NCBI GenBank assembly: GCA_031271345.1
Contig: JAISVX010000004.1
Span: 1 to 64,000, forward strand
Source of the DNA: Lactobacillaceae bacterium
GTDB lineage: Bacteria > Pseudomonadota > Alphaproteobacteria > RF32 > CAG-239
Direction: 5' to 3'
Length of the DNA stretch: 64,000 nt
Under the pieces are notes generated by a model that was not told the DNA's origin, did not search any database, and saw nothing but the letters and a program-made list of their open reading frames with translations. Both the position numbers and the translations under genes were made by a program. Shown one piece after another: positions 763 to 17,034 of the stretch (position 1 is the stretch's first letter; each line of letters begins with the position of its first letter).

Positions 763-838
763 AGGGGTGTAGTTCAGTTGGTAGAGCGTTGGTCTCCAAA
801 ACCAAATGTCGCGGGTTCGAATCCTGCCGCCCCTGCCA
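763..838 (+). tRNA. trnW: tRNA-Trp (anticodon CCA)
   Basis: A complete cloverleaf can be folded. The acceptor stem is AGGGGTG with CGCCCCT, the anticodon stem is TTGGT/ACCAA, and the loop is CTCCAAA with anticodon CCA at 796-798. The T-loop is GTTCGAATC and the CCA end is encoded (836-838). The 3' end from 822 is the integration site for the elements that follow: copies of it recur at 13725, 13899 and 17018, and the integrase gene begins 137 bases downstream. Confidence 0.97.
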
Positions 839-840
839 CT
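822..840. repeat. Attachment-site core, left copy (att 1)
   Basis: A 19-bp stretch from the T-arm/acceptor end of tRNA-Trp (TCCTGCCGCCCCTGCCACT) recurs exactly at 13725-13743. A 19-bp overlapping version starting at 820 recurs at 13899-13917. Direct repeats of a tRNA 3' end, with an integrase gene next to the tRNA, are the usual mark of site-specific integration that leaves the tRNA intact. Confidence 0.85.
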
Positions 841-895
841 TTATAGGTTAACTATTTGATAATACTAAATAGTTGGTTGCAAAATTTGAAATTTA

Positions 896-929
896 AGCAC
901 TTCTGCTAATAAGAAGTGCTAATTTTTTT
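896..929 (+). terminator. Intrinsic terminator after tRNA-Trp
   Basis: A 9-bp stem (AGCACTTCT / AGAAGTGCT) with loop GCTAATA is followed by AATTTTTTTA. It would end the tRNA transcript and insulate the integrase gene. It lies on the element side of the attachment site, so it was probably supplied by the element. The loop overlaps a TGCTAAT motif that also occurs near the right attachment site. Confidence 0.75.
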
Positions 930-974
930 ATCAAAATCCGATGAGTATTAGACGCAACTCAAGAGAGGTCTAAT

Positions 975-2852
975 ATGAAACTTTACAATCGGGTGTCTTC
1001 GTTTTATATTGTTTTTAATGTTCCTATGAAACTCAGAGCCAAAGTCGGTAAAAGCCAAATTTGGAAGTCTTTAGGAACCAAAAATAAAACCATTGCCAAG
1101 CTACGAGCGGAGATGACACTGATGACGATTAAGCAGAAAATCATTAATAAAGTTAAGAATGAACTGGTTGAAGACCTTGACTGGCTTGATGATGATATTG
1201 ATATTAGTGATGATGAGGTTAATGCTGCAATTCGTGAGCGGTCTGGTGTTTCGGTTGGTGGTAAACCCAGAAAGAGGTTAAGTAGTGAAGAAAAGCGTGC
1301 GAAACTTCCTGCAAGTAAAGATTTTACTGAGAAAGAAGCTGAAACGTTGGCTTATGAGTGGTTGGTTGGTAAAGTTGAGAAAGAGTTGGAAACTCTTAAA
1401 TCGGTTGGCAAGCCAGTTGAGGAACGCAAAAAGTATCAAAAGTTGCTTGATGAAGTAAAATGGCAATATGCCAACTGGGATTATGCAATTGTTGAGGATG
1501 AAATGACAGGGTTTTTGTTTGACTTCATAGAACCGAAACCGTCAGAAGCTACAAAAAATGTTATGTTAAATGCGTTTATGCGGGCAAAAATCCAGTTTTT
1601 GGACTACATTTTGAGCTATTTATATGGGATACGCCAAAATTTAAGCAAGGAGTTGATAAGTGGTGCTGACGAGTATGTTGGTAGTCGAAAAGTCATCAAC
1701 AGCATTCCTGACATCGGGCAGTGCGAGGAAAGTACATTTAATTTGGTCGAGCTGACTGAAGTTTATAATAATGACATTTCCCGTGAGAGAGTTTCTAAAG
1801 AACAAAAAGCTAAGATTTTACTGAGGATTGAAAATATTGTAGAATTTATGGGGGATATGTCTATAAGTAATATAACTGATAAAGATATTGAAAACTTCAT
1901 AAGAGAGATACAGTGCTTGCCAGCACATTATGGAAAAATGAAAGTGGCTAAGAAGTTTACTTTAAAGCAAGCCATAGAATGGGGTAAAAAAGACAATTCT
2001 ATTCAAAAGATTTCCCCTAGCACGCTTGAGAGATATATACAAACATTCAAATCTATTTTGCAATATGCGGCTATGAAAGAATACATACCAAAGAATCCAT
2101 TTGATAAAATTTCGCTACCCAAATTTGATAATTCTGATGATGAAGACAATAAACGTTGCTCTTTTTCGACGTTTCAGTTGAAGACTATATTCGACTCTCC
2201 AGTGTTTTCGGGAGCAATTAATGATGGTAGCGGTTGGAATACTAAGGGTGATAAAATATTTAGAAATTATAAGTTTTTTATACCATTAATCTCGCTATAT
2301 AGCGGGGCTAGACTGAATGAGATTTGCCAACTCTACGTGGAAGATATAAAAAATATCGATGGTACAGATTTCTTTTCAATCAACGATGATGGAGACAAAA
2401 GTGTAAAGAAGTCAACATCTAGACGCAATGTTCCCATACATTCGGAGTTGAAAAAAATGGGGTTTATGGAATATGTAGAGGAAATGAGAAATAAAAATTC
2501 AAAATACCTATTTCCTGAATTGACCACTGAAAAAAGTGGTAGACGTTCAAATGTCTTTAGCAAGCTGTTTGGGAGACTTTTGAAGACTGTTGATAAGCAA
2601 CTTATTGATGAAAAAGATAAATTTATCAAGAGTAAGCACTGTTTCCACTCTTTTAGACATACTTGTCGAGACTGTTTCAGAAATAATGAGTGTGAGAACA
2701 TAGAAGCTATTGAGGCGATTATGGGCTGGAAAGGGCAATATAAAGGTCTTAGTTATTACTATGGACAGGGTTTCACTATGCCCAAATTGAGCGAAATTAT
2801 GGAAAATAAGCTGATTTATCACGATTTAGATTTGAGCCATTTATATAAATAA
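975..2852 (+). CDS. int: Tyrosine integrase of the tRNA-Trp element
   Basis: A 625-residue site-specific tyrosine recombinase expected to integrate and excise the element at tRNA-Trp. The catalytic domain is in the last third: Arg446 in SGARLNE, His558-x-x-Arg561 in HSFRHT, and the nucleophile among Tyr594-596, after a GW motif. The N-terminal 60 residues resemble the short beta-rich DUF6538-type domain of proteobacterial integrases, and a SAM-like core-binding region lies around 260-400. It is longer than typical phage integrases (about 400) because of a charged middle section. The gene sits directly beside the tRNA attachment site in the same direction, as is usual. Confidence 0.93.
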   Translation: MKLYNRVSSFYIVFNVPMKLRAKVGKSQIWKSLGTKNKTIAKLRAEMTLMTIKQKIINKVKNELVEDLDWLDDDIDISDDEVNAAIRERSGVSVGGKPRKRLSSEEKRAKLPASKDFTEKEAETLAYEWLVGKVEKELETLKSVGKPVEERKKYQKLLDEVKWQYANWDYAIVEDEMTGFLFDFIEPKPSEATKNVMLNAFMRAKIQFLDYILSYLYGIRQNLSKELISGADEYVGSRKVINSIPDIGQCEESTFNLVELTEVYNNDISRERVSKEQKAKILLRIENIVEFMGDMSISNITDKDIENFIREIQCLPAHYGKMKVAKKFTLKQAIEWGKKDNSIQKISPSTLERYIQTFKSILQYAAMKEYIPKNPFDKISLPKFDNSDDEDNKRCSFSTFQLKTIFDSPVFSGAINDGSGWNTKGDKIFRNYKFFIPLISLYSGARLNEICQLYVEDIKNIDGTDFFSINDDGDKSVKKSTSRRNVPIHSELKKMGFMEYVEEMRNKNSKYLFPELTTEKSGRRSNVFSKLFGRLLKTVDKQLIDEKDKFIKSKHCFHSFRHTCRDCFRNNECENIEAIEAIMGWKGQYKGLSYYYGQGFTMPKLSEIMENKLIYHDLDLSHLYK

Positions 2853-2879
2853 AAAGTTGCATTTTTTGACCTATTTAGC

Positions 2880-2908
2880 TTGACAATTTGGTTATAATTT
2901 GCTAGGGT
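2880..2908 (+). promoter_or_regulatory. Sigma-70-type promoter for the structured RNA
   Basis: A consensus -35 box TTGACA (2880-2885) is followed after 17 bp by TAGGGT (2903-2908), preceded by TG as in an extended -10. Transcription would begin near 2915 and run into the hairpin-rich region. This is one of the clearest promoters in the element. Confidence 0.6.
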
Positions 2909-2914
2909 ATTTCT

Positions 2915-3119
2915 TGTAGGGAGGGAGTTTCTTTCTACTGTGTCTTTCGGACTTTTTATAAAGTCGGAGCCTTAGTAATGTATTCAGTAGGGTCCTAAGG
3001 AACGGGCTTCTAAAGAGAGACACATCGACTTAACCTGCACTTAGTGGAAACGCCGTTTGGCGTTCTGTGAGTGTTTGGTTTAAGTGGCATTCATAGTCTG
3101 ATTTCATCAGGCTTTTTTT
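2915..3119 (+). ncRNA. Structured RNA with its own promoter and terminator (unknown family)
   Basis: About 205 bases with no open reading frame but dense pairing. TGTGTCT (2939-2945) pairs with AGACACA (3018-3024) and encloses two hairpins, GACTTT/AAAGTC (2950-2965) and CCTTAG/CTAAGG (2970-3000). A second domain is closed by ACTTAACC (3028) with GGTTTAAGT (3077) and contains ACGCC-GTTT-GGCGT (3050-3063). It ends in an 8-bp terminator stem (3095-3113) with seven T. It lies directly upstream of the replication genes, so it could be a copy-control RNA, a leader, or, as DNA, the nicking origin of the Rep protein. I do not recognise an Rfam family. Confidence 0.55.
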
Positions 3120-3173
3120 GTTATCAAAATCACATTTCAAAATCCTTCAAAGATTCTCCTAAGTGCAGGTTAA
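3030..3173. repeat. 15-bp perfect inverted repeat spanning the RNA and the rep leader
   Basis: TTAACCTGCACTTAG at 3030-3044 lies inside the structured RNA. Its exact reverse complement is at 3159-3173, downstream of the RNA's terminator and about 15 bases before the Shine-Dalgarno of the next gene. The two arms can pair in one transcript, which would disrupt the second RNA domain. Alternatively, the released RNA could pair with a separate mRNA leader. Confidence 0.7.
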
Positions 3174-3200
3174 TTAACTTTAACTTACGGAGAATAAAAA

Positions 3201-3866
3201 ATGTCAAAAAATCCTGTTGTAAAAATTAAAAAAGAAATTTCAGAAATTAATAAGAAAATTGAATCTGCTAGAAAGCAAACGTTTGCAGGCAGAACTGAAA
3301 AAATACGTGCTTTTTGCGGAGTATATAAAATCATCAAAAAATGTGAAGCTAAGAAAAGTTACTTAGAAATCTGTCAAAAAATATCTAAACCAAAATGGAA
3401 TAAGAAGAATTTATCACGTTCGGTTGTTGATATGGTTTTTTATAGTGAAAATGCGTCTGATAAAGAGAAACGATTTAATCAACGTGTTACTAGGTTGATG
3501 GTGAATCTATTAAATGCAGACGTTGAGTCTAAAAATGCATTTGAATATATGAAAAAGAATAAGCTGAAAAATCTTTATGGAAAAAATGCAGAACAAAAGC
3601 CTGATTTTAAACCTCGTTTTGAGCCTAAAGTTAAGGGAAAATTTCAGAATATTTTATTGCGTGAAGGTACAGAACTTTATCTTGTTAGCAATAAAAAAAG
3701 GAAAAAAGCGATTGAGCTATTTAATAAATACCAAACCAACATTGATATTGACCTTATAGCTTATGATGACAGAAAAGACGTTGAGAATGGAAGATATAAA
3801 GTTATTGAAACTTTGATTAATCCCACATTAGCCAAGAAGATTAAGGAGCTTATCAATGACAAATAA
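3201..3866 (+). CDS. Basic hypothetical protein coupled to the Rep-helicase
   Basis: 221 residues, strongly basic (many Lys and Arg) and largely helical by composition; no family recognised. An ACGGAG ribosome-binding site lies about 8 bases before the ATG. Its 3' end overlaps the start of the HUH-RecQ gene by 11 bases, so the two are probably translationally coupled and work together. A DNA-binding accessory replication factor would fit the composition and position, but that is inference. Its promoter is either the one at 2880 reading through the terminator at 3095 or an unrecognised one after it. Confidence 0.75.
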   Translation: MSKNPVVKIKKEISEINKKIESARKQTFAGRTEKIRAFCGVYKIIKKCEAKKSYLEICQKISKPKWNKKNLSRSVVDMVFYSENASDKEKRFNQRVTRLMVNLLNADVESKNAFEYMKKNKLKNLYGKNAEQKPDFKPRFEPKVKGKFQNILLREGTELYLVSNKKRKKAIELFNKYQTNIDIDLIAYDDRKDVENGRYKVIETLINPTLAKKIKELINDK

Positions 3867-5952
3867 CTTTAGAGCACCTAAAATCGAGGATACACGTTTT
3901 ATGAAAGCTGATAAAATATCAGAAGAACGTGCTGAGAGAATTAAAATATTAAAACGGGAGATTAATAGTAAAAACACAGAGCCTACTCATAGGGGTAGGC
4001 TCAAAACCCTGCTTGCTAAAATTATGAATTGGGAAGATACTCTTGCTGATATTTTTTATAGTACCAAGTTTCAAGATAAATTATATGCAGAAATAAAATC
4101 TAAGTGTAGAATTTTTAGAAAAAATACCTCTGATTCATCTGCTGTCTTTATGACCTTGAACTGTTGGAATTATAAAAACAATAAAACAGACTGGATTGCT
4201 GTTGATGATTTATTGAGTTTTGACCCTAAAACACCTCTTAATACATTGCGTAGAAAACTTGAAAAATTGGATGATATTGCCGCTTTTATTAGTTTTGAAG
4301 TTAAGTATGACATTAGGGTTGGTGCTTTTCTTCCACATTTTCATATTTTGATTTTAGGTGCTATGGAATCTGACGTTGAACAAGTATTTGATATGTCTGC
4401 AGATACATTTATGTTGAATAGAAACACTTTCAAGATTGATGAAACTAAACACGACCCTTTAATTTATCGTAAGGAATTTAAGCTTAAACCTATAAAAATT
4501 GATGCAGTGTTGAATGATGGTAAAAATCTTAGAGGTTATATTTGTAAGTTTAGAACTTATCAAAGAGCTTATATGCAACAAATTCTTAAACTTAAACAAA
4601 GAGATGGTGCTCAACGACCTATTCCTCATATTCATAATATGCATCTTTTATATTTGGATAAGATGACTCGTGGTAAAGTTTTTTCAACTTATGACCCTCA
4701 AAAAATGATGAAATACATCACAAAACAAAAAATCGATAGTGATAGTTGTGGCTATTTAGATACTGATGAGATGTGTTTAAGTGGGGTTAAATCCAATATA
4801 TGGTATGAGAACAATACTAGCTTGAAAGCTGCATTGAATTATTTAGGTTATGATAAGTTTAAGTCTAAAAAACAAAAAAGAATCGTAAAATACTTGAAGA
4901 AGAATAAAGCTTGCTTCGTGTTGCAACCTACTGCATTCGGAAAAAGTTGTATTTATCAAACTGTGGCTTTATCGCAAAAAGGCTTATGTGTAGTTATTGA
5001 ACCGACAAAATCTTTGATGCAAGACCAAGTTGATAAGCTTAATGCTCATATCAAAAATATTGCTATAACTATTAATAGCGACAAAACTGGTGCAGAAAAC
5101 GAGGAAGCTTTGAAAGCTCTGTCTGTTGGGAAGTATAAGTTCATATTTATATCTCCAGAAAAGACCTTTGATGACAATTTGATAAAAGTGCTTAAAAGCT
5201 TAGATGTGTCCTTAATCGTCATTGATGAAGCACATTGTGTTGAACACTGGGGTTATGATTTTAGACCTCAATATGATAATCTTGATAAATTTTTGCAAAA
5301 ATTTTCATCTGCAAAGAGAATTGCTATGACAGCAACTGCTGATGAATTTACGCAAACAAAAATATTAACATTGTTGCAGACTGGAGGAGTTGGGTTTAAA
5401 AGCTTCATTGGTAATTTGAGCCGTGATAATATTTCCTATAAAGTTGTTGAGAAAAAAGCTGATGGCTTTAATCAACTGAAAAAATATTTATCGCCTTGTG
5501 TTAAAAATGGAGAGGTTATTAAAACCGCTTTGGTGTATTGTAATGTGCGTGATAGAGTTAACCTGTTATGTGATGAGCTAAATAAGGTTGGAATATCTGC
5601 ACATAAATTTCATTCACACGTGAAGAACAAAAACAAAGTTCAGCATATTTTTATGAATGAACCTGCTATTGTTGTTGCTACAAATGCCTTTGGAATGGGA
5701 ATTGATAAACCTGACGTTGAATTGGTTATACATTTTGAACCGTCAAAAAGTTTAGAGCTATATTACCAAGAATCTGGTCGAGCAGGTCGTGATGGTAGGA
5801 AGTGCTGTGCTATACTGATGTGCTGTGATAGGGATTTTAAATATCTATTTCCTAAAACAGAAAAAGAAGAACAAAGAGTAAAAAAGATGAAGAAATATGT
5901 AAACTTGCCTGATTATAAGCGAGTTGGATTTATGTTGGAGTCTATATCTTAA
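3856..5952 (+). CDS. Rep-like HUH endonuclease fused to a RecQ-family helicase
   Basis: 698 residues with two domains. Residues about 95-295 carry the three motifs of rolling-circle Rep proteins: a hydrophobic strand FMTLN (98-102), an HUH metal-binding motif PHFHILI (His161, His163), and a catalytic-tyrosine motif KYITK (Tyr287, Lys290). Residues about 335-665 are a RecQ-type superfamily 2 helicase: Walker A TAFGKS (Lys363), DEAHC (457-461) followed by the RecQ-typical WGYDFRP, TATA (492-495), GMGIDKPDV (613-621) and QESGRAGRDG (638-647). No RQC or HRDC domain follows. Rep would nick and hold one strand while the helicase unwinds, so it is probably the element's replication initiator. The HUH assignment rests on motifs only. 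Confidence 0.8.
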   Translation: MTNNFRAPKIEDTRFMKADKISEERAERIKILKREINSKNTEPTHRGRLKTLLAKIMNWEDTLADIFYSTKFQDKLYAEIKSKCRIFRKNTSDSSAVFMTLNCWNYKNNKTDWIAVDDLLSFDPKTPLNTLRRKLEKLDDIAAFISFEVKYDIRVGAFLPHFHILILGAMESDVEQVFDMSADTFMLNRNTFKIDETKHDPLIYRKEFKLKPIKIDAVLNDGKNLRGYICKFRTYQRAYMQQILKLKQRDGAQRPIPHIHNMHLLYLDKMTRGKVFSTYDPQKMMKYITKQKIDSDSCGYLDTDEMCLSGVKSNIWYENNTSLKAALNYLGYDKFKSKKQKRIVKYLKKNKACFVLQPTAFGKSCIYQTVALSQKGLCVVIEPTKSLMQDQVDKLNAHIKNIAITINSDKTGAENEEALKALSVGKYKFIFISPEKTFDDNLIKVLKSLDVSLIVIDEAHCVEHWGYDFRPQYDNLDKFLQKFSSAKRIAMTATADEFTQTKILTLLQTGGVGFKSFIGNLSRDNISYKVVEKKADGFNQLKKYLSPCVKNGEVIKTALVYCNVRDRVNLLCDELNKVGISAHKFHSHVKNKNKVQHIFMNEPAIVVATNAFGMGIDKPDVELVIHFEPSKSLELYYQESGRAGRDGRKCCAILMCCDRDFKYLFPKTEKEEQRVKKMKKYVNLPDYKRVGFMLESIS

Positions 5953-5970
5953 AAGTCAACCGTTGACTTT
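5952..5970. terminator. Hairpin shared by two convergent gene ends
   Basis: AAAGTCAAC and GTTGACTTT form a 9-bp stem around one C, which in practice means an 8-bp stem and CCG loop. It contains or touches the stop codons of the helicase and the convergent recombinase gene. T-runs are short on both sides, so termination would be weak. Confidence 0.35.
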
Positions 5971-6517
5971 ATAAATAGTTATAAATGCTCTGTCTTGTTA
6001 TACCGAATTTTGAGGCTATGGAGGTGATGGTGTGGTTTTTGGACTGCACCATCTCTCTTAACTCGTTTTTCTGTTCATCTGTCAGCTTTCCTTGATAACC
6101 TTTATACTTTCCTTTTTGTTTGGCTATGGCAATTCCTTCTTTTTGGCGTTCTAGTATGATGGATCGTTCAAACTCTGATACTGCACCAAGTAGGGTTAGC
6201 ATTAGTTTTTGGAATGGGTCGGTTTTTTTGTTTGATTCGAAACTTAGGTTTTCTTTGAAAAACTTAACTGAGGCGCCTTTTTTGAGTATGGTGTCGATTA
6301 GTTGGAGCAAGTCGGCGGTGTTTCTTGCTAAGCGGTCGAGACTGTGAACTTGAATTAAATCTCCATTGCGTAAGTTGTCTAGCATTGCTTGTAGTTGTGG
6401 TCGGTTTGTATCTTTGCCAGAGAGCTTGTCGATGTATTCTCGGTCGCATTCGATGTTTAAGAGCTGTCTGTCGGTGTTTTGAAGTTGAGTGCTAACTCTG
6501 ATGTAATTAAAACGCAT
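5969..6517 (-). CDS. Serine recombinase (resolvase/invertase family)
   Basis: 182 residues, the usual length for small resolvases and DNA invertases. The nucleophile is Ser9 in YIRVST; the family motifs LDRLARN and GAVSEFERSI...ERQKEGI follow. The C-terminal 40 residues form a helix-turn-helix (SIASKFGITRQSIYNYL) for site recognition. A good AGGAG lies 6-7 bases before the start. Repeated TGTCAAA half-sites upstream (6568-6643) are a plausible target or operator. It may resolve dimers made during replication of the element or invert DNA; the sequence alone does not say which. Confidence 0.92.
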   Translation of the reverse strand: MRFNYIRVSTQLQNTDRQLLNIECDREYIDKLSGKDTNRPQLQAMLDNLRNGDLIQVHSLDRLARNTADLLQLIDTILKKGASVKFFKENLSFESNKKTDPFQKLMLTLLGAVSEFERSIILERQKEGIAIAKQKGKYKGYQGKLTDEQKNELREMVQSKNHTITSIASKFGITRQSIYNYL

Positions 6518-6567
6518 TGTATTCTCCTAGATGTGTAAAAATTGGTTTATAGATGTTGGTTGTCAGG

Positions 6568-6643
6568 TGTCAAAAGTATTTGGGTCTGAACTTATTTTTG
6601 ACAGGTTTGGTGCTGTCAAATTTAACTACACTCATTTTTGACA
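6568..6643. repeat. Two inverted TGTCAAA pairs, candidate recombinase site
   Basis: TGTCAAAA (6568) faces TTTTGACA (6596-6603), and TGTCAAAT (6614) faces TTTTGACA (6636-6643). Both pairs are inverted, of about 36 and 30 bp, immediately upstream of the serine recombinase gene and running into the end of the gene beyond it. Small inverted half-sites of this size and place are typical of resolvase subsites. The arrangement is read by eye only. Confidence 0.5.
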
Positions 6644-7152
6644 AGCTGAACTGCGTAGAGTTGTCTGATGAAAATTCGGTATTTAGTCTCCCCATCGATG
6701 GTTGATACTTCATCAATAGGAACTTTTCGTAAATCATCGCTATCGAAAAAGTGGATGTGGGTATCGTCTATACTTCTGATAACTGTGAAGTGGTCAAAAT
6801 CTTCTTTTTCACATTGAATCCGAACAATGACGGCTCCGAGGTTACGAATGTATCGGCATAGTTCTTTACCGTTAAATCTTTCATTCCAAAATATTCTGGT
6901 GGTTCTGAACTCGGTTCTATAGTTTTTAAGCAAGTGGTTGTTGGTGGTGTCGATTAACATTTCGAAGCATTCTCTGCCGCAGCCGTTTAACATTAGGTCG
7001 CTGAGAAGTTCTTGGTCGGTTAGCATCTCGGAGAAGTCGTCGAAAAGAGCTTGAACTTTTTTCTTGGTTAGTTTTAATCCGCAGAGCTTGATACTATTGG
7101 CTAGTACGTAGTAAGAACATAAGCGGTCTGTTCCTTGTTTGTATGGTCGCAT
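6622..7152 (-). CDS. Putative papain-fold (C39-like) cysteine peptidase
   Basis: 176 residues. The pattern QGTDRLCSYYVLANSI at residues 6-21 puts a Gln ahead of Cys12, the order seen in papain-fold peptidases. DHFTVI near residue 120 gives a candidate catalytic His, and HFFDSD shortly after gives a candidate Asp. That is the order Gln-Cys-His-Asp of C39-like and BtrH-like proteins. No signal peptide is present, so it would be cytoplasmic. AGGAGAT precedes the ATG. A terminator-like hairpin stands only 17 bases upstream of that site, which suggests regulated read-through. A non-enzymatic relative of the fold is possible. Confidence 0.5.
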   Translation of the reverse strand: MRPYKQGTDRLCSYYVLANSIKLCGLKLTKKKVQALFDDFSEMLTDQELLSDLMLNGCGRECFEMLIDTTNNHLLKNYRTEFRTTRIFWNERFNGKELCRYIRNLGAVIVRIQCEKEDFDHFTVIRSIDDTHIHFFDSDDLRKVPIDEVSTIDGETKYRIFIRQLYAVQLVKNECS

Positions 7153-7168
7153 TTTTATCTCCTAAGCA

Positions 7169-7200
7169 TAAAAAAAGACTGAGGTGATGTTCCTCAGTCT
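7169..7200 (-). terminator. Minus-strand intrinsic terminator just ahead of the C39-like gene
   Basis: On the minus strand AGACTGAGG pairs with CCTCAGTCT around a 7-base loop, followed by seven T. No minus-strand gene lies between here and 7469, so the hairpin ends a short leader or small RNA made from 7200-7450, or acts as an attenuator for the gene starting at 7152. Confidence 0.65.
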
Positions 7201-7468
7201 GATGTGGTTAATATCATTTATGTAAAAATTCGGTTCTTTCATATATTACCTTTTAAAATACCTTACCTACCGCCAGTTTGCGGGCGATGGTTAAGTTATG
7301 AATTTTTGTGATTTTTACAGTTATATTATATAACCGAATCGAGTCGAAAACAAGGAAAATCAACACTTTTCAACTAAAACGAATCGAGAAAAAGTCGATA
7401 CGAATCGATGATTTGATAATTTTGTTATGTAATAAGTAAAAAATCGATTTTTTATAAAGGATGATAAA
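7201..7468. other. Non-coding control region with CGAATCGA repeats and a palindrome
   Basis: No gene found. CGAATCGA occurs at 7335, 7380 and 7401, and an extra TCGATA is at 7395. A 16-bp palindrome, six A then TCGA then six T, is at 7438-7453, just ahead of the Shine-Dalgarno of the gene at 7469. The left part contains a possible small hairpin around 7270-7285 that would be in the leader ahead of the minus-strand terminator. The repeats could be operators for a regulator or iteron-like sites. Confidence 0.5.
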
Positions 7469-7690
7469 ATGACACCTCAAGAACAAATCAAGCTTGAAAA
7501 TCGGCTCTGTATGTTGGAAAGACAGGTTAAAAAGATTATCAAGCATCTAAAGAGCCAACCTAAAACGGAACAGAACAAAAAAGATAGTTCTGGGTTTGTG
7601 TGTCGGTATTGTGGCAAAAGAGCGAAAACTCCAAGCCCTGGCACTTGTCCATATAGCCCGGATGGTAATCACGTTTTTCTAAAAGCCTAA
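7469..7690 (+). CDS. Small zinc-ribbon-like protein
   Basis: 73 residues. The N-terminal half is a predicted coiled coil (residues 5-30). The C-terminal half has Cys-x2-Cys-x11-Cys-x7-His (VCRYCG ... GTCPYSPDGNH), which could hold one zinc ion. AAAGG lies 8 bases before the ATG and a terminator follows immediately. Small proteins of this design are common on mobile elements; the partner and function are unknown. Confidence 0.65.
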   Translation: MTPQEQIKLENRLCMLERQVKKIIKHLKSQPKTEQNKKDSSGFVCRYCGKRAKTPSPGTCPYSPDGNHVFLKA

Positions 7691-7696
7691 ACAAAA

Positions 7697-7729
7697 GCCC
7701 CAGTTCATAACGAATTGGGGCGGTTTTTG
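7697..7729 (+). terminator. Intrinsic terminator after the zinc-ribbon gene
   Basis: GCCCCAGTT pairs with AATTGGGGC (one G-T pair), then GGTTTTTG. It separates this gene from the convergent three-gene cluster. Confidence 0.8.
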
Positions 7730-7736
7730 TCTTTAG

Positions 7737-8480
7737 TCACCACGTGTATCTGTAGCTTTTGCCAGATCTAATTGCTAGTCCAGATTTGCTTTTAAACCAT
7801 ACAGTCACTTGCTTCTGTGTTTTACCAGAGCTGTACTCATCTCTACCTCTGTAACACAAGACCCTATATATGCCACTATCAAAAAGCCCTAAAAACTCGG
7901 CGGGTTGTTCTCCTATTACGAAATATGATTCATATTCTTTATCTTTTTCGATTTTATCGTAGTCATAAAAAATTACATCATCGTCAGCATTTTCTTTTAT
8001 GGCTCTTTTGCAAGCTTCAATCGTTTCTTTAGTTTCTTTATCCTTCTCGGCTTTAGCCTGTTTATTGAATAAACTTTTATCAATGGCATGTTCTTCGGGG
8101 AGAATGTTATCACTTGGTTGGTTCTCTCTGATTAAGCCGCATCTTCCAGCAGGTACTTTCTCAGGGAATGCGGCATCAATCATATATTGATAATCCTCAG
8201 TAATATTAGAGAGAACTTCACCTGCAAGCATACGATTCATTACTGAAATGAAATTGTTTTTGCGGTTTAGTTTGCAGTCGTAAAGTTCTTTACCATCTGA
8301 AAAGACTAAATGTCTCTCGTTAGTTTGGCAGTTTCCATTTATATCAAACCATTTTTTTATAACATCAACTTTATATTGAGCTTTGATTCTTTCTGCACAC
8401 AGGTTCATGTCGTCTGTTTGTCCTGCGTGTGCGATGGTGGTTGTTAAGCATAGCGCCATAGTTAGTATAAGTTTTCTCAT
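7737..8480 (-). CDS. Exported hypothetical protein
   Basis: 247 residues with a clear Sec signal peptide (Arg2, Lys3, hydrophobic core, cleavage near AHA-G at 17-20). The mature protein has six or so spaced Cys residues, which may form disulfides in the periplasm, and a Lys/Glu-rich helix around 140-165. No family recognised. It is the last gene of a three-gene minus-strand cluster (8924, 8482, 7737) with gaps of only 1-4 bases, so its role is probably tied to the two membrane proteins upstream. Confidence 0.72.
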   Translation of the reverse strand: MRKLILTMALCLTTTIAHAGQTDDMNLCAERIKAQYKVDVIKKWFDINGNCQTNERHLVFSDGKELYDCKLNRKNNFISVMNRMLAGEVLSNITEDYQYMIDAAFPEKVPAGRCGLIRENQPSDNILPEEHAIDKSLFNKQAKAEKDKETKETIEACKRAIKENADDDVIFYDYDKIEKDKEYESYFVIGEQPAEFLGLFDSGIYRVLCYRGRDEYSSGKTQKQVTVWFKSKSGLAIRSGKSYRYTW

Positions 8481-8481
8481 A

Positions 8482-8919
8482 TTAATTCCTGTCTAACCTT
8501 TCAATTGTTTCAAGTTGTTGGTGTAGGTCATTTACTTTTTGTTTTATCTCTTTGTCGTTCATAATGCCCTCGGTGCAGGAGATTGGAAAGCCAACTAAAG
8601 CTAGGATGATTAAGTATTTGATAGTTTTTAGGCTTCGATTACCCCATAGAACCAATAGACTGGCTCTTTTCTTAGTGAAAAGTGAACATAAGAGCATTAT
8701 TGGTATGGTGAAAATGTTTGCTACCAATAATATGGCTAGAAACAGCAGGCAGTTGGTTAGAACCAAACCTTTGCCCGGCTCGAATGTTTCAAATAAAGTG
8801 ATGGCTAAGCCGATGTTCAAACAAGCCCACACTATTGTCAGCCAGTTTTTGGTAGCATCGTTTTTCTCGGAAGAATCGACAATCTCGATTTTATGAACTT
8901 TTTCCTTGTTTTCGGTCAT
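8482..8919 (-). CDS. Membrane hypothetical protein, three predicted helices
   Basis: 145 residues. Predicted transmembrane helices lie at about 25-45, 52-80 and 98-115. The N-terminal 24 residues are charged and the C-terminal tail (120-145) is an acidic coiled coil. No family recognised. It is the middle gene of the cluster, four bases after the upstream gene and one base before the exported protein gene, so the three are almost certainly co-transcribed. Confidence 0.72.
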   Translation of the reverse strand: MTENKEKVHKIEIVDSSEKNDATKNWLTIVWACLNIGLAITLFETFEPGKGLVLTNCLLFLAILLVANIFTIPIMLLCSLFTKKRASLLVLWGNRSLKTIKYLIILALVGFPISCTEGIMNDKEIKQKVNDLHQQLETIERLDRN

Positions 8920-8923
8920 AACA

Positions 8924-9745
8924 CTATCCTATTTGACCGCCAAGAAATAATGGTTCTTCGTTCTCATCAATACCCATAGTCATACCCCCATAATTGTTTA
9001 GCCATTCAATGATTTTGGGACATTTTATGTTTTGAGGATTAACTTGATCCAATTTAGTCCAAGCAGTGTCGTTTTTATCAAATGATGTGGTTGAACCCAT
9101 TAATAGAGTTAATACTTCGCCTTTTGTGCAAAAACGTTGGCTGTATAGTGCTTGGTTTGGTGATGTGTTTTGGCTCATAATTTCGACTTTGATTGTGTCA
9201 CTGCCATATTTACAGCCAGTATCCACCGATAAATTAATTAAGGAACCGTCACAGGAGGAGTAGAGATTATTTGATGTTTTTTGTGGAGCAGAGGTTTTAG
9301 TGGTTGGTTTGGCATCTGATTTTTCCCATTTGCTCCCTTTCTTATTGAATAATACGCAGTTTTGAGGGTGTTGTTCTTCGGTGATTTCTGCTGAAATCAT
9401 ATCACCGTCTTTTTCAGTTTTAACCCACATAATTTCATTATCAAATTCAAAAGAGTAGTAAATTACGGAGTTTTTGCATTCTTTTTTGCTTTTGTTCTTA
9501 AACAATGAAGCGGTCGAGTCAACTAATTCATTGGTGGGATTAATACCCTCAGAAGCAAGACCAAGCCTAGTTGCTTTTTTTATCATATCATTAGCGAGGT
9601 TCAGTCTTTCTTTTTCATTGTTGCCAAATATTATTTGAAATGCACCATAGACAAGTCCTGCTAGAACAATTAAGCCGACTATATAGTTAATCCAGTGCCA
9701 GATTTTACCAAGGATTGATTGGGTTTCTTCTTTATTTTTGCTCAT
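8924..9745 (-). CDS. Single-pass membrane hypothetical protein
   Basis: 273 residues. A short cytoplasmic N-terminus is followed by one transmembrane helix (about 17-38), and the remainder is probably periplasmic with several Cys residues and a low-complexity Lys/Thr/Ser linker near 140-160. No family recognised. It is the first gene of the three-gene cluster. Its promoter region (9746-9827) is shared with the divergent HTH gene and contains a nested palindrome, so that regulator probably controls the cluster. Confidence 0.72.
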   Translation of the reverse strand: MSKNKEETQSILGKIWHWINYIVGLIVLAGLVYGAFQIIFGNNEKERLNLANDMIKKATRLGLASEGINPTNELVDSTASLFKNKSKKECKNSVIYYSFEFDNEIMWVKTEKDGDMISAEITEEQHPQNCVLFNKKGSKWEKSDAKPTTKTSAPQKTSNNLYSSCDGSLINLSVDTGCKYGSDTIKVEIMSQNTSPNQALYSQRFCTKGEVLTLLMGSTTSFDKNDTAWTKLDQVNPQNIKCPKIIEWLNNYGGMTMGIDENEEPLFLGGQIG

Positions 9746-9761
9746 ATTATTCCTCTCTTTA

Positions 9762-9792
9762 TGTAATTAAAAATACTGTAAGTATAATTACA
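9762..9792. promoter_or_regulatory. Nested palindromic operator in a divergent promoter region
   Basis: TGTAATTA (9762-9769) faces TAATTACA (9785-9792), and inside them ATACT (9773) faces AGTAT (9781-9785) around GTA. It lies between the divergent HTH gene (9828) and the membrane cluster (9745), as expected for a phage-type repressor binding site. Confidence 0.55.
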
Positions 9793-9827
9793 TTTAAATA
9801 AAGAATGTCAACAGGTAAGTTGGTTAT

Positions 9828-10061
9828 ATGAATAGAGAAAATGCCGAACATATAACCCAAAATGTCGTTGACTTGCTTGAAAAAGAGAGGGTTAAAAGAA
9901 AAATCACAAAGACCGAGATTAATACAAAAACCGGTCTAAGCCGTACTGCGTGGACGTTGACAGTTTCAAAAAAGAACAGCCCAACCCTTCGGACTCTGCT
10001 AATGGTTGCTGATGTTATTGGGATTGACTTAAAAGAAGTCATCAGACAGGCTGAGAAATAG
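9828..10061 (+). CDS. Small Cro/CI-type HTH regulator
   Basis: 77 residues, essentially one helix-turn-helix domain: ITKTEINTKTGLSRTAW is the recognition region (about 26-42) and TLRTLLMVADVIGIDL the typical following helices. Size and fold match Cro or XRE repressors. It diverges from the exported/membrane cluster with a nested palindrome in between, so it probably represses that cluster and itself. No strong Shine-Dalgarno is seen (AACAGGTAAG is about 12 bases upstream). Confidence 0.8.
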   Translation: MNRENAEHITQNVVDLLEKERVKRKITKTEINTKTGLSRTAWTLTVSKKNSPTLRTLLMVADVIGIDLKEVIRQAEK

Positions 10062-10113
10062 TCCGCTAAAATTATTATATAGTGGACTGTTATTATTACT
10101 CATTGCTATAAAA

Positions 10114-11688
10114 TTATGCAGCAATTTTACTTACATGCTTAGCAAATAATGGATGAATGACAAATTTTATATCATCAATATAATCCAACTCATTTAGAAT
10201 AGGTTGGTTTGGGGTGGAGTAAACTATTGAGCCATCTATATCTTCCTTGCCAATGATACCAATCATAAATAAGACATTTAACAACTTTTTAATATTAGCT
10301 GTTTTGCAATAGTTATCATCTTTTTCACAAGATAAAAACATTTCAACAATGGTATCATCATTTTTATTAGAGGATAGCAGTACACCTTCTACATCTTTGT
10401 AGTTTGCAATGGCATCATTATATGAGAATTTATTCCCGAGCACATAAACTGTTTGAATGTATGTCATAATGTTTGGGTAATTATTAGCCCATTCGTGACT
10501 TAAAGAATTTAATCTGTCATGTCTAAAAGCTTTCTCTGCCATTATTATAGCTGCAGGAGTTATTGCATCTGCATCATCTGATTCGGCAATACATAGATTA
10601 ACGAACGAAATAGCGTCTCTAGGTCTCATCATAGTTCTTTCTAGAATGTAATCATATCCCTTTATTCCTGATATTTCACAATCAAACAGGTCTTTGAAGT
10701 TAACTTTTACGTTTTTCTTATATTTATGGTATACAAGGAAATTCACTCTTTTATTGAGCAAATCAATAAGCATATTTCTTGTCCAATTTAACTTTAATGT
10801 AAAAGCAACATCTTTTTCGTTTTGACGCTTCATAATCTTACATGTCTTGGCTAATAAATCCGCTCTCATTGCAATAATGATCTTTAAATTAGGCACGTCT
10901 ACAAACAACCTTATTGCATCCAACAAAGCATTAATAAGTTTGTATTTTGCATCGTCGTCTACCCAGTTTTGGTCTAGATCGTCAATTGTAACGATAATTT
11001 TTCTCTGCTTGTTGTTTTCTAGATATTCTTTCAATAAACTTATAACATTTTTTAGCTGATTTATCTGAGTAGAATTTATACACTGACTTGCTTTTGTTTG
11101 TATTTCCTGTTTCTGTCTTTCAGATAATGTTCCCCTTAGTTTTGCAAAGTCAGCAAACCCTAACTCGGCAGCTAATTTTTTTTCTATTTCAGTAGTGATT
11201 ATTTGGGCACTTCTCTCTTCGAAGAAGATATTCCCATATTCATCTAGATATTTTTTCAATTGGGCAATTCGTGTGTTGCTACAAAGTTTCTCTGTGAAAG
11301 CTTTGAAAAAATCTTTTCTATTATATGCAAAGTACTGCTTAATAATGTTTGAGATTATTTCGTGAAGCCATAAGAATTTATAAAATATTTCTAGATTTAT
11401 TCCTTCGTCTTTCATACCCTTAATAAATGGTATATTGTTTATATATTGAAGAGCAAAAGTATCGGGTTTTACAGATATAAAAACATCGACATCCTTTTCT
11501 AGCATGTTAATAATTGCTGTTTTGCCACTTCCTGTACGGCCGAGCAAAATCATTTTCTTATCTTCAAAATCTAAAACAGATTTATATTCAGGTGTTTCCA
11601 GAAAACATTCTGATAAAAATTCACCATCATTCTCGGCTGCTCCCGTTCCGATGTTCATATTTCTCTTAAATATAATGTTAGCAACCAT
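10114..11688 (-). CDS. P-loop ATPase, Sll1717/KAP-like, putative defence protein
   Basis: 524 residues. Walker A is GRTGSGKT (50-57) and a Walker B-like strand IVTIDDLD lies near residue 237, followed by a sensor-like IIIAMRADLL. That arrangement matches STAND/AAA-related ATPases of the Sll1717 or KAP kind. The N-terminal 45 residues would couple to nucleotide binding; the C-terminal 150 residues are helical. It lies 110 bases downstream of the DUF6119 gene on the same strand, on a mobile element, and the pair resembles defence cargo. The antiviral role is inference. Confidence 0.72.
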   Translation of the reverse strand: MVANIIFKRNMNIGTGAAENDGEFLSECFLETPEYKSVLDFEDKKMILLGRTGSGKTAIINMLEKDVDVFISVKPDTFALQYINNIPFIKGMKDEGINLEIFYKFLWLHEIISNIIKQYFAYNRKDFFKAFTEKLCSNTRIAQLKKYLDEYGNIFFEERSAQIITTEIEKKLAAELGFADFAKLRGTLSERQKQEIQTKASQCINSTQINQLKNVISLLKEYLENNKQRKIIVTIDDLDQNWVDDDAKYKLINALLDAIRLFVDVPNLKIIIAMRADLLAKTCKIMKRQNEKDVAFTLKLNWTRNMLIDLLNKRVNFLVYHKYKKNVKVNFKDLFDCEISGIKGYDYILERTMMRPRDAISFVNLCIAESDDADAITPAAIIMAEKAFRHDRLNSLSHEWANNYPNIMTYIQTVYVLGNKFSYNDAIANYKDVEGVLLSSNKNDDTIVEMFLSCEKDDNYCKTANIKKLLNVLFMIGIIGKEDIDGSIVYSTPNQPILNELDYIDDIKFVIHPLFAKHVSKIAA

Positions 11689-11798
11689 TTTAATCCTCTT
11701 TTAAAGTATAATTTGCCATAGTACTTTACATTTTAAATGCATTATCCATTAATATTAGTAATATAGACTATAAAAGTCGATATTCAAATAGATTAATT

Positions 11799-13436
11799 TT
11801 ATATTTGAGAATTTTTGATTACATCAAATTTTACAACCATTCCCATATAATCACATAAGCGTTCACAAGTATTGTTAAGATTAACCTTGCTAAAGAAAGG
11901 GATATCCACAGTTGAGTTTTGTGGTTTAGCGATTATTGCATACACTATTTTAAAATTTCTAATATTACTACCGAAAGAAAAATTAGATGCGGGATACTTG
12001 TCTTTTATTTTTTTCTCTGCTTTTTTAACAAAGTTTTTATCTCCAATTAGAGATTCTGCAGATATCAGCCCCTGGGCAAATAAATGGCTTAGTACACTGG
12101 AACCGGAATATCTTTTGATATGTATTAAATGGTTGTTTTGGATATCCAATAGGTCACATACTTCAATTCTACTTGTTTTGCCGCCATAAGATACCATTTT
12201 TCTATCTAGACACAGAAAACCTGTATTTAATGCTAATGCCTCATTGTATTTTTGTTCATCATCATGGTTATAATCTATATAATTTATACCAGAAGATTGA
12301 GAAAAAAAGTTACTAAATTTATTGTTTGTATTCGTTAAGAAATCTTGATTTATTTCATACCACCCTTTGTTTATGAGCATGTATGTTTTATTTTTTCCGT
12401 TATGAGATATGGTAATTTCAGCATTTAGGCACTGAAATGCATCCCAAGAGTAAGATATTTTCTTTTCTTCTGAACTGGCTGCATAAATATAGGAGTTTTT
12501 AAGGCGTTCTACATTGAAATCTTTGTTGGGAGATTTTTTTATCATAGTTTTTAAGTCTATTAAATTAATGTCATCAAACGTTTCTTTGGAGTTTTTGCGA
12601 CAATAACGGAAGCCTTTTATATTCTCCCATTTTATAATTTCAGGAACAGCTATCCACATTTTATCATCTTCTTTTGTTATGTTAGATAGTTTTTTGTTCA
12701 ATTCATCATCTAGCCTATCCAGTAGTATTTTATCGTTTTTTACGTAGAATACGTTATCAATCCATGAGAATCCTTTATTTTCATATTTCTTGAACTGGTA
12801 TCTTTTTGACAAGAATCTTAACAATGTATCAATATTATTAATATCTGCTCTTATGCTCAAAGATAAACTGCTTGCCCCTGATATGGTTTTTCCCACGAAT
12901 TTTATCAATCTTTTATTTTTATCGCTGATTGTACCGGTTACCCCAGTTAATATATCGGTTTGTGTATTAATATTAAAATCTGTCTGTGAGCCTTTTTTTG
13001 ATAATTGCTCACTAGTTTGTTTGGGTGTGGATGATATATCATATTTAGATATTTTTCTTAAACCTTCACTTTCTGGTATTAGATTAAGTATACATTTAAG
13101 ACCGAAGTTTGGTATGTAACTATCACTTTTTAACATATGAAAACCAGTTCCGAATGTTATAGCAAATGTGTATGTTTTGTTTTTACGAGTAACGTTTTTA
13201 ATAAATAAAGCTTGGGATGAAGATGTTTTAAATATATTGTTTCCATAGTTATCAGTAAAACTTTGGCAAAAAAAGCCTTGCACCCAGTCAGGTTCGTTTA
13301 CGCCTTTAGGATTATAATAAAGGTTTCCCCCACCTACATTTATGCTTTTGTATGATGAAATATTATCTTTGAATATATCATTTGGCATTTTTCCATCTTT
13401 TATAAGATATATGTTGAGTTTATTTACTTCCATCAC
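11799..13436 (-). CDS. TIGR04141 / DUF6119 family protein, putative defence protein
   Basis: 545 residues. The start (NKLNIYLIKDG), the central WVQGFF...FTFG-like block and the middle SLSIRADI and TLLRFL regions match my memory of the 'sporadically distributed protein, TIGR04141' family. This family is patchily found on mobile DNA and has no settled biochemical role. The start could be Met1 or Met2. It precedes the P-loop ATPase gene in the same direction, suggesting a two-gene system. It is close to the right end of element 1, where cargo is commonly carried. Confidence 0.7.
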   Translation of the reverse strand: MMEVNKLNIYLIKDGKMPNDIFKDNISSYKSINVGGGNLYYNPKGVNEPDWVQGFFCQSFTDNYGNNIFKTSSSQALFIKNVTRKNKTYTFAITFGTGFHMLKSDSYIPNFGLKCILNLIPESEGLRKISKYDISSTPKQTSEQLSKKGSQTDFNINTQTDILTGVTGTISDKNKRLIKFVGKTISGASSLSLSIRADINNIDTLLRFLSKRYQFKKYENKGFSWIDNVFYVKNDKILLDRLDDELNKKLSNITKEDDKMWIAVPEIIKWENIKGFRYCRKNSKETFDDINLIDLKTMIKKSPNKDFNVERLKNSYIYAASSEEKKISYSWDAFQCLNAEITISHNGKNKTYMLINKGWYEINQDFLTNTNNKFSNFFSQSSGINYIDYNHDDEQKYNEALALNTGFLCLDRKMVSYGGKTSRIEVCDLLDIQNNHLIHIKRYSGSSVLSHLFAQGLISAESLIGDKNFVKKAEKKIKDKYPASNFSFGSNIRNFKIVYAIIAKPQNSTVDIPFFSKVNLNNTCERLCDYMGMVVKFDVIKNSQI

Positions 13437-13724
13437 AAGAATCCTATGTTGATTATTATCTTAAAGATATAACAATAATAGTCTTTTGCAAGTGTTAATT
13501 GTGATAGGCTGTTTTTTATAAATGGATTGTTGGTATACTTATTGATATTTTTGTTTTTGAAATAGCTTGTAAGCAAGTATTGACAAGCTTTTAAGATACA
13601 TTTAAACTGCTAATAACATTGCTAATAGATTCTGCTAATACTTTTTGATTTTGACAAATATTTTGCAGGGTAGAAGTTGTTTGATTTCAATGAGTTATGG
13701 GTAAATATGGCAGGGGCGTAAATT
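13437..13724. other. Non-coding right end of element 1, with repeated TGCTAATA
   Basis: No gene found. TGCTAATA occurs three times in the same direction at 13608, 13620 and 13633 (spacing 12-13 bp), 85-117 bp from the attachment core at 13725. TGCTAAT also occurs at 904 and 917 beside the left core. These could be integrase arm-type sites. GGCAGGGGCG (13709) and CGCCCCTGCC (13731) form a 10-bp inverted repeat into the core. Confidence 0.5.
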
Positions 13725-13743
13725 TCCTGCCGCCCCTGCCACT
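13725..13743. repeat. Attachment-site core, second copy (right end of element 1)
   Basis: Nineteen bases identical to 822-840 at the 3' end of tRNA-Trp. Together the two copies bound about 12.9 kb that starts with the integrase gene. A strong bidirectional hairpin follows at once. Confidence 0.85.
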
Positions 13744-13780
13744 AATAAAAAAGCCCGTTTTAGCGGGCTTTTTTATTAGT
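13741..13780. terminator. Bidirectional terminator with 17-bp perfect arms
   Basis: ACTAATAAAAAAGCCCG (13741-13757) and its exact reverse complement (13764-13780) surround TTTTAG. The CG-rich top with A and T runs on each side acts as an intrinsic terminator on either strand. Directly behind a tRNA-end copy, it may be the original terminator of tRNA-Trp before element 1 inserted. Confidence 0.8.
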
Positions 13781-13898
13781 GAGGGTCTGACAGGTTTGAA
13801 GACGCAGAAGCGAGTTCGACTACCAGGCTTAGGTGAGGCGGGAGCATCGCTGGTTTGCGGAGCAAAAGCCGCCAGTGCAACTCGAATGAAATGAGAAT

Positions 13899-13917
13899 AA
13901 TCCTGCCGCCCCTGCCA
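13899..13917. repeat. Attachment-site core, third copy
   Basis: AATCCTGCCGCCCCTGCCA equals bases 820-838 of tRNA-Trp. It lies only 156 bp after the second copy. The short segment between them (13744-13898) is more GC-rich than its surroundings and has no convincing gene, only the terminator and some pairing potential. Confidence 0.8.
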
Positions 13918-13923
13918 TATAGA

Positions 13924-13950
13924 ACAGTCCTCCTTGTGAGGGCTGTTTTT
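13924..13950 (+). terminator. Intrinsic terminator behind the third attachment copy
   Basis: ACAGTCCTC pairs with GAGGGCTGT (one T-G pair) around CTTGT, followed by TTTTT. Like the second copy, this tRNA-end copy is immediately followed by a terminator. The remaining stretch to 14175 shows no gene. Confidence 0.65.
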
Positions 13951-14175
13951 GCTTTATATTCCAATACTTACAGACAGTTCGAAAAAGACATTTTACAAAA
14001 TGGTCGTTTTTTAGAAGTTCTCGAACCAATTAGGCAAAAGGACTTGTTTTTCAACAAGTCTCACGTTTCTAACTTAGGTATTTAAATGTCTGTAAGTTAT
14101 TCATGATTGATTTTAGAAATTCGAAGTTTATAATTGCGATATAAATGAAACCCAAAATAAACAGGATAGTATATA

Positions 14176-14922
14176 ATGGCAATTTATCGTATTTTTTCAA
14201 CTGATGAACAAATTAAAAATAATGAAATTCGCACTGGGTATGGCTTCAAAATCAATCTTAAAAATTTCGATAAATATAAAGAAGACTATTCTAAATTTCG
14301 GGATGAATACATAGAAGATTTCGAGGAAATGACAGGCAATTCTTCGAGAATATCTTTAGGATTGGCTCTCGGAAAAATATGGATGTTCTGTAATCTAAAA
14401 AAAGGTGATTATGTTGTCGTCGTCTCATTGGAGGAGAAGGAAAAAATGAGCCTTGTTGAGGTTGTCGGTAAATATAAGTATGACGGTGAAAACGATTGGT
14501 GTCATATTCAAGAAGTGAAGAAGATTAAAGATATTCAAAGGAATGGCTTAACGGATGATTTTAAGCAATTTCTTGGAAACCGGCATAGTATTCTTGCCAT
14601 TCCGGAGAAATATTACAGTGAAATTCCTTTAGAAGAACAAATTAAAGATAGTAGCGCTGGAAAAGTAGATGATATTAGTGAGGCAATAGCCAAAGGGATA
14701 AAAGAAGCCGTAGATAAAAAACTGAATATTTCATTTAAAGTGTTTTCCGTGCTTTTATTAATAGTAGGAATTATAACATTCATATCTCATGATAAAGGAA
14801 TGCTTTGGTCGTTTCCTTTATTGCTTTGGATTCCCACTTGTGCAGCACTTTGGAATATGGCAATTCTTATATCTAAAATAGATGAGCGTATTAAACATTA
14901 TATTGACGGCAAAGAAGATTAG
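14176..14922 (+). CDS. PUA/EVE-like domain protein with two C-terminal membrane helices
   Basis: 248 residues. Residues 1-155 look like an EVE/PUA-like fold: ALGKIWMFCNLKKGDYVVV (about 72-90) matches the lid motif found at the N-terminus of Mrr-like and related nucleic-acid-sensing proteins. Two transmembrane helices follow (about 194-212 and 217-240), with a charged C-terminal tail. A soluble sensor plus membrane anchor would fit an abortive-infection effector, but this is inference. It is the first of four same-strand genes between attachment copies 3 and 4. Confidence 0.62.
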   Translation: MAIYRIFSTDEQIKNNEIRTGYGFKINLKNFDKYKEDYSKFRDEYIEDFEEMTGNSSRISLGLALGKIWMFCNLKKGDYVVVVSLEEKEKMSLVEVVGKYKYDGENDWCHIQEVKKIKDIQRNGLTDDFKQFLGNRHSILAIPEKYYSEIPLEEQIKDSSAGKVDDISEAIAKGIKEAVDKKLNISFKVFSVLLLIVGIITFISHDKGMLWSFPLLLWIPTCAALWNMAILISKIDERIKHYIDGKED

Positions 14923-14947
14923 TTAGTTTTGTGAGGGAAAAGGTGTA

Positions 14948-15223
14948 ATGATGAATCGTAGTATAAATTCAGCTAAAACTGTTGGACTGGTTGCTGAACG
15001 TGAAAGAAAAGCTAAAGAAGAGCAATTAATTAAAGAATATAGAGAACAAGCTAGAGAAATAGAGCGCGATAATCGTGATATTGAACGTGATAGAAGAAGC
15101 TTAGAGAGTGAGAGAAAGTCGGAAGCAAGAGAAAATAAGACCATTAAGATTGCTATGTGGTCTATGGGGATTGCAGTGGTGTCTCTTATTGTTAGTATAA
15201 TTGCTTTGTTTATTAAGAAATAA
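14948..15223 (+). CDS. Coiled-coil protein with C-terminal membrane anchor
   Basis: 91 residues. Residues 15-65 are almost all Arg, Glu, Lys, Asp and Ser in a long coiled coil with repeated ERD/RDIER units, and a single membrane helix fills residues 67-88, ending in two Lys. This tail-anchored layout suggests an oligomerising membrane partner of the preceding protein. It starts 25 bases after that gene. Met1 and Met2 are both possible starts; GAGGG about 9 bases before Met1 supports them. Confidence 0.6.
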   Translation: MMNRSINSAKTVGLVAERERKAKEEQLIKEYREQAREIERDNRDIERDRRSLESERKSEARENKTIKIAMWSMGIAVVSLIVSIIALFIKK

Positions 15224-15273
15224 CAACATTTATTGTTCTTTGTTTATGCCATATATTTATGAAAGGAGCAAAA

Positions 15274-15564: not shown

Positions 15565-15578
15565 AGAAGGGTTGTAGT

Positions 15579-16940: not shown

Positions 16941-17006
16941 TAGAAATCATTTAAAAACGAACATTTAGAGCAAGACATATGAGACTAACAAAACCAGGCA
17001 TATATT

Positions 17007-17034
17007 GGGTTCGCGATGAATCCTGCCGCCCCTG
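17007..17034. repeat. Attachment-site core, degenerate fourth copy
   Basis: GAATCCTGCCGCCCCTG (17018-17034) equals bases 819-835 of tRNA-Trp. Upstream, GGGTTCG (17007-17013) also matches the T-loop but is separated by a four-base insertion CGAT. This looks like an old tRNA-end remnant and is the likely right edge of element 2. The stretch to 17131 has no gene. Confidence 0.7.

Follow-up and report, generated by a model that had tools for sequence, protein, structure and literature searches.

According to the accessible parts of three sources, fusions of HUH proteins with SF3 helicases occur in CRESS-type Reps and in plasmids (PMC6668415), Rep_2 proteins with a 'helicase domain' are found in streptococcal IMEs (PMC5704250) and Helitrons have an SF1B helicase (PMC5876387). 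RecQ is not mentioned alongside HUH fusions in those parts of PMC6668415, PMC5704250 and PMC5876387. A search of the accessible literature for HUH proteins or rolling-circle replication paired with RecQ gave, among the papers listed, no fusion of this kind, which agrees with a first-pass annotation that knew of no described HUH-RecQ replicase, absence not being proof; the co-occurrences of HUH and RecQ seemed unrelated, judging by title. The gene analysed here is probably the rolling-circle replication initiator of a tRNA-integrating element, endowed with its own 3'-5' helicase. Since rolling-circle initiators, Rep_2-helicase proteins among them, have been described before on integrative elements (PMC5704250, accessible part), what is new here is the RecQ partner together with the Rep_1-like lineage. 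Thus, of the earlier suggestion (an initiator, on an integrative element of a new, rolling-circle type), the initiator is still the best reading, while the element type as a whole is not new.

The window, by which we mean the whole stretch of 64,000 nucleotides that was analysed, holds at 3856-5952 an uninterrupted frame for the single protein of 698 residues previously proposed. Its features are as follows.

3856..5952, + strand: HUH-RecQ fusion protein, 698 aa (open frame)
4129..4575, + strand: predicted HUH nickase core, residues 92-240 (invariant columns, Rep_1 comparison, AF2, fold searches)
4153-4155, + strand: T100, HUH core, invariant
4297-4299, + strand: E148, HUH core, invariant
4336-4338, + strand: H161, HUH core, invariant
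4342-4344, + strand: H163, HUH core, invariant
4537-4539, + strand: Y228, HUH core, invariant
4546-4548, + strand: K231, HUH core, invariant
4831..5925, + strand: RecQ helicase core, residues 326-690, without RQC/HRDC (TIGR00614, TIGR01389)

All the RecQ motifs that had been listed for the C-terminal half (TAFGKS, DEAHC..WGYDFRP, TATA, GMGIDKPDV, QESGRAGRDG) are present, and residues 328-687 match TIGR00614 with 295.9 bits (E=5e-88), above the curated cut-off of 219.8 bits. By contrast, the RecQ equivalog TIGR01389 scores 308 bits, below its cut-off of 640.2, as the protein is not a full-length RecQ: the alignment spans only positions 7-351 of the 591 in the profile, and the RecQ half ends where RQC and HRDC would start. 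Its nearest plasmid relatives are ordinary RecQ proteins, at about 35-38% identity (37.5% for RecQ on E. coli records), and matches in phage collections are no closer than ordinary plasmid RecQ.

Nine further copies of the fusion were found in MAGs, nearly all alphaproteobacterial, with identity in the HUH half going down to 24%. Five full-length homologues come from other genera within the GTDB family of the host, and three copies from a second alphaproteobacterial family (one in genome G434 and two in G537, one of the latter frameshifted). A copy whose short contig was assigned to a Lachnospiraceae bin (L021) is nearly identical to alphaproteobacterial ones and was probably misbinned. At another locus (L046:6995-9063) a frameshift, from decay or assembly error, splits a HUH-RecQ copy into pieces of 509 and 183 aa. 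The carriers are gut and rumen Alphaproteobacteria. The two halves are joined in every full-length homologue, and a tyrosine integrase is present at 9/9 loci where the contig extends far enough, so that the search for homologues of the same two-domain order, proposed at the outset, succeeded on both counts. Among close copies dN/dS ranges over 0.09-0.26 for the HUH half, 0.09-0.17 for the RecQ half and 0.30-0.66 for the linker: both halves are under purifying selection. That an HUH Rep-like predicted nickase is joined to RecQ in one protein, and conserved as a fusion, is well supported. RecQ matches occur in only 9 of the 136 genomes of the host family, and six of these nine are HUH-RecQ fusions. 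Three other RecQ-like matches in this family (L076, L077 and L078) were checked and are not HUH fusions.

The gene is part of an integrated element having its own integrase, as had been claimed: a PF00589 integrase at 975-2852 directly follows a tRNA-Trp gene, the 3' end of which is repeated downstream. The element and its surroundings comprise:

763..838, + strand: tRNA-Trp (CCA), target of integration, with the left att copy at its 3' end (822-840; ARAGORN, repeat scan)
975..2852, + strand: tyrosine integrase, 625 aa, with N-terminal DUF6538 (PF20172 E=3e-10, PF00589 E=6e-8)
2853..3200, + strand: structured intergenic region, candidate origin or regulatory region (ssDNA fold z=-3.76)
3030-3049 / 3154-3173: inverted repeat with 20-nt arms, 90%, within 2853-3200
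3201..3866, + strand: partner ORF, 221 aa, overlapping the start of the fusion gene (no reliable Pfam match)
5969..6517, - strand: small serine resolvase, 182 aa, convergent with the fusion gene (PF00239 E=7e-36)
6622..7152, - strand: conserved element protein of unassigned function, 176 aa, adjoining the resolvase in relatives
10114..11688, - strand: cargo P-loop NTPase of the KAP family (PF07693 E=1.5e-7)
11799..13436, - strand: cargo DUF6119 protein (PF19614 E=3e-126)
13725..13743, + strand: att copy identical to 822-840 (19/19), where the element probably ends on the right
13899..13917, + strand: second att-like copy, 19/19 to 820-838
17018..17034, + strand: third att-like copy, 17/17, ending an adjoining module without integrase

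GC content is 33.6% in 840-13743 vs 39.7% past 17034. In a genome of the same genus the tRNA is present without the element, but its flank is non-syntenic, so that it provides no clean empty site. As a single strand, region 2853-3200 folds better than 100 of 100 shuffled sequences (z=-3.76). The hairpin-rich character attributed to this upstream region is therefore borne out in the window, but a conserved hairpin origin, sought in the relatives, was not conserved, and an Rfam search of the region gave no convincing match; it is a putative origin. Between the tRNA and the integrase stand TGCTAA(T/C) repeats (895-925), also seen at four other loci (L011, L013, L045 and L046), possibly integrase arm sites. 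Past the likely right end, at 13725-17034, the extra att-like copies bound a 3.1-kb module without integrase, in which a gene at 14176-14922 matches PADLOC candidate PDC-S02; the arrangement looks like tandem accretion of elements at this tRNA. Further along the window, a Cas9-like ORF of 973 aa is followed by Cas1- and Cas2-like ORFs (23297-27464), and nearby, at about 28560-28770, SIAYLIWKGSYN recurs in a single reading frame; by eye, these look like a Type II CRISPR-Cas locus.

From the tRNA, the element runs through the tyrosine integrase and the partner ORF to HUH-RecQ, followed by the convergent serine resolvase and the cargo. Relatives at tRNA-Gln and tRNA-Asn share this order, with an extra ORF of about 317 aa after the integrase; in the second family integrase and fusion adjoin tRNA-Ser and tRNA-Gln. 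A positional counterpart of the partner ORF (203-316 aa) lies immediately upstream of the fusion at every locus, its sequence being poorly conserved. In one genome (G103) the tRNA-Gln is duplicated whole at a distance of 16.9 kb, and an 18-nt copy is found at 46.7 kb. The cargo of relatives includes, by eye, DNA methyltransferases.

The identity of the N-terminal half is less immediate. Residues 1-335 gave no convincing direct profile match in Pfam, PHROGs, NCBIfam or PDB sequences, the HUH half proper (residues 92-240) matched no library family directly, the fusion itself failed to match Pfam Rep_1 (PF01446) at the gathering score, and relatives of its HUH half were not found in IMG/VR or in phage and plasmid collections. 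Yet when the 10 N-terminal halves are aligned, the most distant sharing 24% identity with the window protein, just 21 columns are invariant, and they include T100, N102, E148, K150, D152, R154, P160, H161, H163, Y228, K231, T234 and Y235. A lone H-x-H means little, but the presence of all these motif residues among so few invariant columns exceeds chance. The set that is kept (T100-x-N102, E148, H161-x-H163, Y228-x-x-K231-x-x-x-Y235) follows pC194-type Rep_1 initiators in order and spacing. Of the Rep-type motifs noticed in the first pass, FMTLN and PHFHILI are present and H161 and H163 invariant, whereas Y287-x-x-K290, taken then as motif III, is not conserved. Residue Y287, as a catalytic candidate, is replaced by F or another residue in homologues and K290 varies too. 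Because Y228-x-x-K231 is invariant, Y228 is the better candidate, and most likely the catalytic tyrosine, in a Y-x-x-K-x-x-x-Y arrangement as in pC194 Rep.

A stand-alone relative of the HUH half provides an intermediate. This protein of 298 aa, from another family of the phylum, is encoded 3' of a small HTH gene (AlpA/excisionase-like, by eye) and has T, E, H-x-H and Y-x-x-K in common with the fusions. It matches Rep_1 (PF01446) with E=0.0019 and 18.1 bits, under the Pfam gathering cut-off of 33.2. On the Salmonella plasmid pIndS104-CTX, an island carries, following an AlpA family gene, a 'hypothetical protein' (L053, 5722-6594) that resembles it. Against a set of 10 Rep_1 proteins, including those of pC194 and pKYM, which keep F-x-T-L-T, E, H-x-H and Y-x-x-K, the fusions read F-x-T-x-N, E, H-x-H and Y-x-x-K; E and the first H are 13 residues apart in either group, and Y stands 65 residues past the second H in the fusions vs 57 in Rep_1. 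Comparison of the two families by hhalign reaches 82% (E=1e-5) with E148 and H-x-H aligned when the stand-alone relative is included, and only 44% without it. Before motif I, the cysteines of the zinc-finger C-x-x-C are invariant in the Rep_1 set, where the fusions read A-(N/D)-x-x-Y.

An AF2 model of the whole protein from 6 sequences was poor (pLDDT 53), the HUH half being better modelled alone (pTM 0.72, 10 sequences). Strands are predicted at 96-102, 142-152 and 157-167, the last bearing H-x-H; helices separate the first two strands, as is the case in HUH Reps. The best Foldseek match, to AAV Rep, was weak (E=0.026). In VIA the best match was SIRV1 ORF119, which we take to be an HUH Rep (Z 5.5, rmsd 5.5 over 106), with ribosomal S6 close at Z 5.1; pMV158 RepB, MVM NS1, AAV Rep and PCV2 Rep are also listed, and unrelated ferredoxin-like folds score nearly equal. 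In BFVD, viral proteins, mostly unnamed, match the model at E=1e-5. As the PDB matches are weak, we do not claim the HUH fold from them. The structure and profile check that had been called for thus came out in part: motif order and hhalign favour a Rep_1-like protein, the PDB fold matches being weak. From motifs, spacing and the stand-alone intermediate, we conclude that the N-terminal half is a predicted Rep_1-like HUH nuclease, with which the modelled fold is consistent.

The main rival is a relaxase-type use, in which HUH-RecQ would nick the circle at an oriT after excision; a helper conjugative element would take the strand, unwound by RecQ, so that the element would be an IME. We hold this to be unlikely. 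In relaxases the catalytic tyrosine is N-terminal to H-x-H, whereas the conserved Y-x-x-K is C-terminal to it here, the order of Reps; an N-terminal tyrosine, Y68, is invariant across the fusions, but it is absent from the stand-alone relative and its segment aligns with the Rep_1 zinc-finger region. By eye, no coupling protein, secretion or transfer genes were recognised in the regions inspected. The elements nevertheless occupy different tRNA genes and genera, and therefore move, and mobilization is conceivable because Rep_1 initiators can serve it through ICEBs1, streptococcal IMEs having initiator-type relaxases that include Rep_2-helicase proteins (PMC5704250, accessible part). A further reading, which we find quite improbable, makes the N-terminal half a degenerate DNA-binding domain that targets RecQ and is inactive as a HUH nuclease; it would account for the weak fold matches and for the missing direct profile match, but not readily for the invariance of T, E, H-x-H and Y-x-x-K in 10 fusions and the stand-alone relative (H161-x-H163 and Y228-x-x-K231 among them), nor for purifying selection.

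Sister elements share the serine resolvase, relatives of which are present in 42 of the 136 genomes of the host family, and in the 8 resolvase regions on which our reading is based, other small H-x-H proteins occupy the position of the replication gene. Three (L118, L120 and L121) are HUH proteins of 250-254 aa with HIHGIFF and Y-x-x-K; regions L115, L116, L117 and L122 have other H-x-H proteins, that of L122 weakly matching REP_ORF2-G2P (E=6e-4). In L119/L120 the HUH gene (254 aa) overlaps by 17 bases a separate gene for a UvrD helicase of 422 aa (PF00580 E=4e-50); a large serine recombinase lies, by eye, near this pair (e.g. L120:9450-11466). As HUH variants stand at one place in elements sharing the resolvase, these elements form one family, with HUH alone, HUH with a separate UvrD, or HUH-RecQ. 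This bears on the proposal, very improbable in our opinion, that the fusion is a defence or repair cargo gene sensing or processing DNA ends instead of the replication protein of the element. Defence systems do include RecQ-like helicases, the protein matches the PADLOC DpdF and PsyrT models via its helicase, and restriction-modification genes are seen by eye in the cargo of relatives. But host-family copies have the fusion in the constant integrase-to-resolvase part, outside the variable cargo, those of the second family adjoin the integrase as well, and sister elements carry another HUH gene at the same place. Finally, that the element owes its mobility to a Helitron- or IS91-like rolling-circle transposase, and that its tyrosine integrase is a bystander, is barely credible: the Helitron plan is indeed HUH plus helicase, but that helicase is SF1B and 5'-3' (PMC5876387, accessible part) whereas the fusion has an SF2 RecQ, and integration at tRNA 3' ends with tRNA sequence duplicated and a tyrosine integrase adjoining is the integrase pattern.

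The preferred reading is thus the replication initiator, and comparison points to rolling-circle replication by the element. The integrase would excise it as a circle; the HUH half would nick one strand at an origin on it via Y228, with H161 and H163, and possibly E148, holding the metal. As with Rep_1 enzymes, the HUH half would remain attached to the 5' end, and synthesis would be primed from the free 3' end. The RecQ motor, on the intact template strand, would displace the nicked strand, later re-ligated, and the resolvase would resolve multimers. For strand displacement plasmid Rep_1 proteins rely on the host helicase PcrA/UvrD, whose part the fused motor would take. The genome of the window carries UvrD-type helicases of its own, so that the element has no strict need to bring one. 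UvrD, like RecQ, moves 3'-5', the direction in which a helicase must run if it is to peel off the nicked strand in rolling circle, and the same as that of host PcrA/UvrD; together with the sister modules, this shared polarity is the strongest functional argument, a comparative one. On balance we lean to the wider view that a family of tRNA-integrated alphaproteobacterial elements, replicating by rolling circle, exchanges its initiator modules: HUH alone, HUH beside a UvrD gene that it overlaps, or, in one lineage, a RecQ core joined to a Rep_1-like nickase, which would be the first known HUH-RecQ replicase. If true, a job known with SF3 and SF1B helicases would have recruited another, unrelated class, in a compact enzyme that holds nickase and 3'-5' helicase within 698 residues, and the RecQ would be unusual in acting in replication initiation instead of repair. 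Sister elements, with a separate UvrD or without helicase, are the natural comparison for why elements bring their own motor.

How, then, does the fusion stand beside known systems? With cellular RecQ (TIGR00614/TIGR01389) it shares complete helicase motifs, including the W-G-x-D-F-R-P loop; it differs by the absence of RQC and HRDC, the added N-terminal HUH half, its coding on mobile elements and its hosts, mostly without RecQ. With Rep_1 (PF01446, pC194 and pKYM plasmids) it has in common F-x-T, E-x12-H-x-H and a downstream Y-x-x-K at similar spacing, but it is sub-threshold in Pfam, lacks the C-x-x-C zinc-finger region, has a helicase attached and resides on an integrated element. As far as the accessible parts of the sources describe them, Helitron transposases follow the same HUH-helicase order, theirs being SF1B and 5'-3' in transposition without integrase (PMC5876387); streptococcal Rep_2-helicase proteins likewise place HUH before the helicase in one protein, on IMEs (PMC5704250); and the Rep-SF3 fusions of CRESS-DNA viruses and pCRESS do so too, some on integrated plasmids, with an SF3 helicase where the protein described here has an SF2 RecQ and Rep_1-like HUH motifs (PMC6668415).
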